From contig JABFGJ010000009.1 in NCBI GenBank assembly GCA_013112545.1, positions 62,001 through 126,000 on the forward strand: a stretch of DNA of 64,000 nucleotides. The letters run 5' to 3'. A model generated the notes under the pieces. The model did not search any database, was not told the origin of the DNA, and saw only the letters and a list, made by a program, of their open reading frames with translations. Made by a program: the position numbers and the translations under genes. Shown here in pieces: positions 9,965-10,696 of this stretch (positions are counted from its first letter, which is position 1; each line of letters begins with the position of its first letter). The stretch is from Bacteroidota bacterium. Lineage in GTDB: Bacteria; Bacteroidota; Bacteroidia; Flavobacteriales_E; Vicingaceae.

Positions 9965-10038
9965 GGTCCGGTAGTTCAGTTGGTTAGAATACCTGCCTGT
10001 CACGCAGGGGGTCGCGAGTTCGAGTCTCGTCCGGACCG
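9965..10038 (+). tRNA. tRNA-Asp (anticodon GTC)
   Basis: The cloverleaf folds fully. The acceptor stem pairs GGTCCGG (9965-9971) with CCGGACC (10031-10037), with discriminator G at 10038. The anticodon stem is CCTGC/GCAGG around loop CTGTCAC, giving anticodon GTC. The T loop is TTCGAGT. The 3' CCA is not encoded. A terminator follows immediately. Confidence 0.96.
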
Positions 10039-10039
10039 C

Positions 10040-10145: not shown

Positions 10146-10194
10146 TAGCTCAGCTGGATAGAGCATTCCGATTTTTGAATCGGAAAGGTCACAG
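10146..10194 (+). pseudogene. tRNA-Arg-like fragment A (D arm and anticodon arm only)
   Basis: Twenty-one bases from TAGCTCAGCTGGATAGAGCA onward are identical to the D-arm region of the intact tRNA-Arg at 10234-10307, and GGTCACAG at the end matches its variable/T-arm start. Between them is a different anticodon arm: TTCCGATT pairs perfectly with AATCGGAA around a 4-base loop. The 5' acceptor strand, T loop and 3' acceptor strand are absent, so it cannot be a working tRNA. It may be a decayed duplicate of tRNA-Arg or a leftover of element insertion. Confidence 0.7.
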
Positions 10195-10233
10195 CAAAAC
10201 TTGAAAGAGTTAAGAGTAATGAATTGAAATAAT

Positions 10234-10307
10234 GGTCGAGTAGCTCAGCTGGATAGAGCATCTGCCTTCTAAGCAGACGGTCACAGGTTCGAATCCTGTC
10301 TCGATCA
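10234..10307 (+). tRNA. tRNA-Arg (anticodon TCT)
   Basis: The acceptor stem pairs GGTCGAG (10234-10240) with CTCGATC (10300-10306), allowing one G-T pair; the discriminator is A at 10307. The anticodon stem TCTGC/GCAGA encloses CTTCTAA, giving TCT, which reads AGA/AGG. The T arm ACAGGTTCGAATCCTGT is canonical. CCA is not encoded. A strong terminator starts one base later. Related fragments lie on both sides. Confidence 0.95.
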
Positions 10308-10346
10308 CAAAGCCCCGAATATCGGGGCTTTGTTGTTTTATAAAAA
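10277..10346 (+). repeat. 70-bp direct repeat, copy 1 (tRNA-Arg 3' end plus terminator)
   Basis: The bases from ACGGTCACAGG through the terminator and TATAAAAA are identical to 10627-10696. The repeat covers the T arm, the 3' acceptor strand and the terminator of tRNA-Arg. The two copies flank the GIY-YIG gene. Confidence 0.95.
10308..10338 (+). terminator. Terminator after tRNA-Arg
   Basis: CAAAGCCCCGA and TCGGGGCTTTG form an 11-bp perfect stem with a 3-base loop, followed by TTGTTTTA. An identical copy lies at 10658-10688 after tRNA fragment B. Confidence 0.85.
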
Positions 10347-10359
10347 GTGAAAAATAAAA

Positions 10360-10602
10360 ATGTACACGGTTTATATATTATACTCAAATTCAAAAGACAA
10401 GTATTATGTAGGGCACACATCAGGTATTGAGGATAGATTGACTAGGCATAATACAGGGAGAAACAAATCAACAAAGTATGGTGTTTCTTGGGAATTAGTT
10501 TATAAGGAAGCTTTTAGCACCAAATCTGAAGCCTATCAGCGAGAATTGGAAATCAAAAAGAAGAAATCGAGAGTATATATTGAAAAGCTAATTAAAGGAT
10601 AG
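10360..10602 (+). CDS. Small GIY-YIG nuclease family protein
   Basis: The 80-residue protein is a stand-alone GIY-YIG domain of the UPF0213/YhbQ type. VYILYSNSKDKYYVGHT contains the two signature strands (VYI and YVG), RLTRHNTGRNKSTKYG carries the conserved Arg and the loop that follows, and Glu51 in VYKEAFSTKSEA fits the metal-binding position. Short GIY-YIG proteins are predicted to cut DNA, but most in this subfamily lack tested roles. The gene lies between tRNA-Arg and a tRNA-Arg fragment. Its last codon and TAG stop (GGATAG) are the first bases of that fragment, so the gene abuts or invades the tRNA sequence. Confidence 0.88.
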   Translation: MYTVYILYSNSKDKYYVGHTSGIEDRLTRHNTGRNKSTKYGVSWELVYKEAFSTKSEAYQRELEIKKKKSRVYIEKLIKG

Positions 10603-10658
10603 AGCATTCCGACTTATAAAGTCGGAACGGTCACAGGTTCGAATCCTGTCTCGATCAC
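10597..10658 (+). pseudogene. tRNA-Arg-like fragment B (5' truncated)
   Basis: GGATAGAGCAT (10597-10607) matches the D-arm 3' side of tRNA-Arg, and the bases from 10627 on match its T arm and 3' acceptor strand exactly. The anticodon arm differs and is longer by four bases: TTCCGAC pairs with GTCGGAA around TTATAAA. The 5' acceptor strand and 5' half of the D arm are replaced by the end of the GIY-YIG gene. It is therefore most likely non-functional, although AATCGAG inside the GIY-YIG gene could pair with the 3' acceptor strand at six of seven positions. Confidence 0.75.
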
Positions 10659-10696
10659 AAAGCCCCGAATATCGGGGCTTTGTTGTTTTATAAAAA
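10627..10696 (+). repeat. 70-bp direct repeat, copy 2
   Basis: This is identical to 10277-10346 and carries the tRNA-Arg 3' end and its terminator. The offset is 350 bases, and the GIY-YIG gene occupies most of the interval. Confidence 0.95.
10658..10688 (+). terminator. Terminator, second copy, after fragment B
   Basis: This is the same 11-bp GC-rich stem with 3-base loop and T-rich tail as at 10308-10338. Here it would end transcripts of the GIY-YIG gene. Confidence 0.8.

Follow-up and report, generated by a model that had tools for sequence, protein, structure and literature searches.

A small GIY-YIG nuclease gene set among broken tRNA genes looks like a tRNA-parasitising selfish element of Bacteroidota

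Why should a very small nuclease gene lie between an intact tRNA gene and pieces of the same tRNA? We address this question for one locus in the window, by which we mean the whole stretch of 64,000 nucleotides that was analysed. All features of the locus are on the plus strand. tRNA-Asp(GTC) (9965–10039, ARAGORN) is the upstream neighbour of an intact tRNA-Arg(TCT) (10234–10308, ARAGORN; Rfam RF00005, 72.2 bits), and this pair is also present in relatives that carry no GIY-YIG gene. Between the two lies a 5' pseudo-copy of tRNA-Arg (10146–10194; repeat families D2 and D6, BLAST to tRNA-Arg, sequence), which covers approximately tRNA nucleotides 8–51, ends with the 5' strand of the T arm and has the perfect palindrome TTCCGATT-tttg-AATCGGAA (10166–10185) in place of the anticodon arm. 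The intact tRNA is followed by a terminator hairpin (10307–10340, inverted repeat I12) and by the 80-residue GIY-YIG gene (10360–10602; Pfam PF01541, alignment, AlphaFold2). Next comes a 3' pseudo-copy of tRNA-Arg (10597–10658; BLAST, sequence, Rfam) spanning approximately nucleotides 18–75, in which a second perfect palindrome, TTCCGACTT-ata-AAGTCGGAA (10607–10627), takes the place of the anticodon arm; it reaches 27.2 bits with the Rfam tRNA model, below the cut-off of 29 bits. A preliminary description of the locus had reported the intact tRNA, the gene, a tRNA fragment on either side, a 70-bp exact direct repeat flanking the gene and a stop codon inside tRNA sequence. The tRNA (by ARAGORN), the gene (by Pfam) and both fragments are where it had put them; the repeat joins the 3' part of the tRNA with its terminator (10277–10346) and the displaced 3' part with a second terminator (10627–10696), and the stop TAG (10600–10602) falls within tRNA-derived GGATAGAGC.

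Two features go beyond that description, namely a palindrome in both fragments and the presence of seven small GIY-YIG genes in the source genome, six of them beside tRNAs. The near-identical palindromes TTCCGATTtttgAATCGGAA and TTCCGACTTataAAGTCGGAA substitute for the anticodon arm in the two window fragments, and as a result both are much more stably folded than their shuffled counterparts (z -4.4 and -4.2). Between the 70-bp repeats, the nuclease is the sole ORF on the plus strand and there is no integrase gene. The M61 peptidase gene in the window flank gave no anchor for an empty site, as its synteny is not conserved in the family.

Judged from its sequence, the window gene encodes a member of the GIY-YIG nuclease superfamily with conserved catalytic residues. 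The protein scores 60.1 bits against PF01541 (cut-off 22.6; E 2.7e-16), and in an alignment of 16 relatives Y16, G18, R26 and E62 are invariant and Y5 nearly so. AlphaFold2 gives a confident model (pLDDT 91), whose nearest folds are 1zg2, SLX1 and I-TevI, in that order. The nearest solved sequences are UPF0213 1zg2 (E 1.6e-12), the best PDB match, and SLX1 7cq2 (E 1.7e-7); no NCBIfam model exceeds its cut-off. The ORF is free-standing, outside any intron or intein, and a group I intron around it was discarded because Rfam finds no group I or II intron. A defence system was rejected as well, the PADLOC matches being only weak. Relatives are absent from plasmids and viral contigs, and three phage matches are all weak.

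To what extent is the company of tRNAs a matter of chance? The source genome holds eight PF01541 matches, one UvrC-sized and seven small. The six small genes that adjoin tRNAs do so at Arg, Pro (a tandem pair), elongator Met, Asn and another CAT-anticodon tRNA. With 60 tRNAs assumed for the genome, chance would bring six of seven to 200 bp or less from one with a probability of about 4e-11. The Pro, Met and Asn loci contain pseudo-tRNAs with palindromes too, in differing arms. The motif TCCCGN6CGGGA has five copies in the 3.27 Mb source genome, three of them in tRNA-derived sequence. The exception without a tRNA (L001; G000:C13:16821-20039) is a second kind of small GIY-YIG gene, situated amid REP-like repeats (CATTGCGAGGAGGTACGACGAAGCAATCT). 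Elsewhere in the genome (L205; G000:C2 around 152535), a solo 3' fragment of tRNA-Leu(TAA) has TCCCGCTTGAGCGGGA replacing its T arm, with no nuclease gene nearby.

Relatives of the gene occur in 38 of the 46 genomes of the family, and approximately 45 family loci were found at Arg, Pro, Ala, Val, His, Met, Asn, Leu and Phe tRNAs. There, 5' fragments lie upstream and 3' fragments downstream, broken at the anticodon loop, and the recurrent order is 5' tRNA fragment with palindrome, intact tRNA, terminator, GIY-YIG gene, palindrome with 3' tRNA fragment, terminator; a mirror form has a 5' pseudo-copy on one side of the gene and the intact tRNA on the other. Wherever both fragments are present (L018, L021, L025, L047, L055 and the window), the palindrome is common to them. 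The arm replaced is mostly the anticodon arm and sometimes the D or T arm, which does not agree with the D arm as the specific target proposed earlier. Stop codons within tRNA-derived sequence, on the other hand, do recur among Bacteroidota relatives, as had been anticipated: at L029 and L061 the stop lies within the intact tRNA, and at Asn-type loci, where TCCCGNNNNNNCGGGA replaces tRNA nucleotides 26–35, the ORF often runs through tRNA nucleotides 8–25 and the palindrome to a TAA at approximately nucleotides 37–39.

Several loci are arrays. At L045, tRNA-Met is followed by 10.2 units of 457 bp with 99% identity, at L046 tRNA-Met is accompanied by 8 units, and at L044 three 5' fragments precede tRNA-Asn with 4–5 units downstream. 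The numbers of 5' and 3' pseudo-copies are frequently unequal. In addition, the two kinds share sequence around the palindrome, an overlap that would not be expected had a single tRNA simply been split. Simple nested insertion, for which 5' and 3' fragments should be equal in number, fits the window, L018 and L055 and nearly fits L044, but fails for L045 and L046. Ten loci have a further palindrome, which takes the place of the T loop in the displaced pseudo-tRNA.

The tRNA-linked arrangement at the window belongs to a phylum-wide Bacteroidota pattern. An FCB-wide scan of Bacteroidota and related phyla, with one genome per species and Asn-type proteins as queries, returned 79 loci (one record is labelled Thioalkalivibrio and may be misbinned). 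In 73 of the 79 there is an intact tRNA within 300 bp or there are tRNA fragments (49 and 69 loci, respectively), and the 6 loci with neither are mostly near a contig end. Among the best 60 small PF01541 loci of a score-ranked list for the phylum, there are 26 for which an intact tRNA lies no more than 400 bp away, in every case on the same strand and with isotypes from Asp to Ser, and 2 more have tRNA fragments, also on the same strand; the other 32 are of a second, non-tRNA kind, several amid REP-like repeats. These counts rule out chance proximity of small GIY-YIG genes to tRNAs.

We asked how faithfully gene, palindrome and tRNA keep together. On the protein tree, the tRNA label requires 18 changes (minimum 15, shuffled 39) and the palindrome class 7 (minimum 6, shuffled 17.7), so the protein lineages are each faithful to a single tRNA type and a single palindrome class. 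Where lineage and tRNA type conflict, the palindrome tracks the protein (L034 versus L023, L020 versus L037 and L050, L060 with L056): L034 and L023 have the same kind of tRNA and different palindromes, and the identical palindrome TCCGCCTAAGGCGGA occurs in two distinct tRNA-Met contexts, L034 and L053. The palindrome follows the protein but the two are physically linked, and it is therefore part of the element, which does not imply binding by the enzyme. Within the palindrome, 96% of the 6/11 pairs are Watson-Crick (34% after shuffling; 0 of 5000), with AT, CG and TA each frequent, and G.U pairs are almost absent from stem positions 1–6. A paired variable core nearly free of G.U points to symmetry at the DNA level.

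The preliminary description had suggested a search for empty sites in relatives, and these exist. We compared 92 syntenic rseP–tRNA-Asn sites in Chryseobacterium. The GIY-YIG gene is present at 9 of them, all 9 with the palindrome, which is found at only 1 of the 83 gene-less sites (Fisher p 1.2e-11); judged by pattern, about 81 sites are clean of both, and a few gene-less sites contain decayed remnants (L212, L216). Comparison of an occupied site (L215) with an empty one at the same tRNA (L216) reveals that the native terminator and flank come after the displaced pseudo-tRNA half. Thus, the unit is lodged within the tRNA gene, which it rebuilds. An empty site could alternatively stem from recombination between the two direct repeats, and insertion and excision both fit. 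Homologues far from tRNAs and empty sites devoid of a repeat pattern, which the preliminary description had taken as marks of coincidence, are the opposite of what was found.

At tRNA-Arg(TCT) itself, the source genome and G034 are the only carriers of the gene among approximately 28 genomes. These two also have the terminator hairpin of the window in common; it is absent from the other genomes, a congener of G034 included, and from the clean or GIY-less relatives examined. Solo palindromic footprints without a gene occur at five loci. At four of them (L094, L095, L097, L102), tRNA-Arg nucleotides 1–12, a palindrome and the closing strand GCTACTC stand upstream of a tRNA-Arg that has no GIY-YIG gene, and these solo elements are possible non-autonomous footprints. 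The fifth (L105, in G041) consists of two tandem units of approximately 100 bp, each with a tRNA-Arg 3' half, a palindrome and a terminator, and lacks a nuclease.

The dN/dS of the GIY-YIG gene is 0.08–0.23, and the protein is therefore under purifying selection. In the measurable Chryseobacterium pairs, dS of the GIY-YIG gene and of its neighbour rseP is 1.01/0.81, 0.81/0.77, 0.35/0.37 and 0.77/0.91. Since the two are similar, inheritance in Chryseobacterium looks vertical, with many losses, and transfer between species would thus be rare. Recent horizontal transfer within the genus is thus not supported, the gene being no less diverged than rseP. Older or within-species spread of the unit, beyond the reach of this comparison, may have occurred. 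At 16 of 22 loci (4.0 expected by chance), the displaced half and the intact tRNA beside it have identical T stems, which indicates that the two copies keep exchanging sequence or that the unit reinserts.

Based on these results, we think it probable that the locus is a selfish element of approximately 250–460 bp, comprising a small GIY-YIG gene and a palindrome inside a tRNA gene, which spreads by recombination at tRNAs and brings a replacement tRNA part with it. Because one tRNA half arrives with the unit, the host is left with an intact tRNA and can tolerate the insertion. We infer that the tRNA gene is cut, where it is cut, and that homing accounts for the spread: the nuclease would break the tRNA gene at the replaced arm, or the palindrome that marks this arm, and recombinational repair would then take the pseudo-tRNA halves and the terminator as homology arms, either installing the unit in an empty tRNA gene or adding another unit alongside. 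Repair of this kind would give rise to the tandem arrays and to the local matching of 3' halves, and arrays would also form if the element cut its own rebuilt tRNA and the break were repaired in misalignment. The earlier proposal of a mobile or duplicating nuclease that uses tRNAs stands with respect to the tRNA link, far beyond chance, and to the arrays; recent mobility is not borne out in Chryseobacterium, and cleavage of the target is putative. Several points speak against the selfish element: the rescue tRNA seems no less open to cutting than the target, the Chryseobacterium gene looks vertically inherited, with no between-species spread seen in the measurable pairs, empty sites fit excision as well as insertion, and the pseudo-copies overlap and often differ in number.

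The nuclease might instead act on the palindrome, as a cruciform or symmetric dimer site, in the manner of RAYT on REP, and never cut the intact tRNA, a duplication mechanism that we consider unlikely but worth keeping in view; its sequel, in which the broken pseudo-tRNA invades the intact one and the unit multiplies locally, seems to us unlikely as well. The rescue tRNA would then need no protection, and the structure-specific SLX1 and UPF0213 are the nearest solved relatives. The match between palindrome class and protein lineage is also in keeping with it, although physical linkage of gene and palindrome means that shared ancestry alone gives this match. The rarity of G.U at stem positions 1–6 suggests symmetric DNA over an RNA hairpin, and the other small GIY-YIG kind of the phylum is often amid REP-like repeats, but the first arrival in a clean tRNA gene still requires a break or recombination.

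It is improbable, in our estimate, that the gene is an old, non-mobile resident, a host-useful nuclease linked to tRNA genes whose fragments and arrays result from passive unequal recombination between tRNA repeats. Vertical inheritance in Chryseobacterium, purifying selection and the lack of plasmid and of strong phage matches fit such a gene, but the many tRNA types, the arm-replacing palindromes, the co-occurrence of palindrome and gene, and the same palindrome and protein lineage at different tRNAs are left unexplained. We give very little credence to an RNA-level system, in which the product would be hairpin-armed pseudo-tRNA transcripts that serve as decoy or guide, with tRNA or those RNAs as the substrate of the protein. 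The 5' pseudo-copies do retain the tRNA upstream sequence and D arm, and palindromes also replace T and D loops in some copies. However, the stem is nearly free of G.U pairs, all Rfam families other than tRNA fall below cut-off, the arrays and repeats point to DNA recombination, and to our knowledge all GIY-YIG enzymes characterised so far cut DNA.

The closest known system is SegB of phages, which was reportedly the subject of a study by Brok-Volchanskaya et al. 2008 that is cited in PMC13096335. In T4 and T6, SegB is a GIY-YIG homing endonuclease with a free-standing gene linked to tRNAs. It demonstrates that, through homologous recombination, such an enzyme can amplify units of tRNA plus nuclease gene into tandem copies, with microhomology between the tRNA 5' end and the nuclease gene 3' end at the repeat junction; it is phage-borne and reported without isotype preference (PMC13096335). 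Both systems have a GIY-YIG gene beside tRNA genes of many isotypes, tandem amplification of units and junction microhomology. In contrast to SegB, the Bacteroidota gene is chromosomal, each lineage is bound to one tRNA type, palindromes replace tRNA arms, and the arrays carry pseudo-tRNAs rather than extra working tRNAs. SegB-like free-standing homing genes in general resemble it in the stand-alone ORF and in the existence of element-lacking alleles (81 of 92 Chryseobacterium sites; L215/L216), whereas horizontal spread, which would leave the gene less diverged than its neighbours, is not seen in Chryseobacterium.

Small UPF0213/YhbQ-like proteins and the nuclease domain of SLX1, which works with SLX4 in eukaryotes, are nearest by sequence and fold, and we know of no report of tRNA linkage for solved UPF0213 proteins. 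With REP/RAYT, the element has in common short palindromes tied to one nuclease lineage and gene-less solo footprints, but its fold is GIY-YIG and not that of an HUH tyrosine (Y1) transposase, and its palindrome is nearly confined to tRNA copies, with few dispersed (the five TCCCGN6CGGGA genome-wide). The unit resembles tRNA-using integrases and genomic islands in restoring the tRNA and leaving behind a displaced repeat of its 3' part; it differs in having a single nuclease of 80–100 residues and no integrase, in the break at the anticodon, D or T arm, and in the palindrome within the repeat. Synthetic Cleave-and-Rescue drives, engineered in eukaryotes with recoded rescue copies, likewise combine a nuclease with a rescue copy of a gene otherwise destroyed, but the rescue tRNA here is not recoded and cleavage is putative.

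We advance only tentatively, as a possibility we rather doubt, that this is a new class of single-gene mobile element, with a GIY-YIG nuclease that recognises its own palindrome, tRNA genes as target and homology arms, and a replacement tRNA half carried along: a natural cleave-and-rescue system at many tRNA types in Bacteroidota and related phyla. In the full-text literature, whose coverage leaves out preprints and most subscription papers, the searches found no description of the arrangement in cellular genomes, and it looks like a selfish element, so far apparently unrecognised, that parasitises tRNA genes while its host retains a functional tRNA. If this is true, a widespread tRNA parasite is driven by the unremarkable 'GIY-YIG nuclease family' genes of many Bacteroidota genomes. 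It would be a natural counterpart to cleave-and-rescue gene drives and the cellular equivalent of SegB in phages. The tRNA fragments and odd tRNA duplications of Bacteroidota genomes would be explained, and a set of small lineage-specific nucleases with cognate palindromes would be directly testable.

Two minor observations concern individual loci. At L161 and L184, the T stem of the displaced tRNA copies differs from that of the intact tRNA, as expected if the unit imported a foreign tRNA half. In one Algoriphagus genome (L191), a GIY-YIG gene flanked by copies of tRNA-Lys has a duplicated tRNA Lys-Pro-Arg cluster upstream of it.
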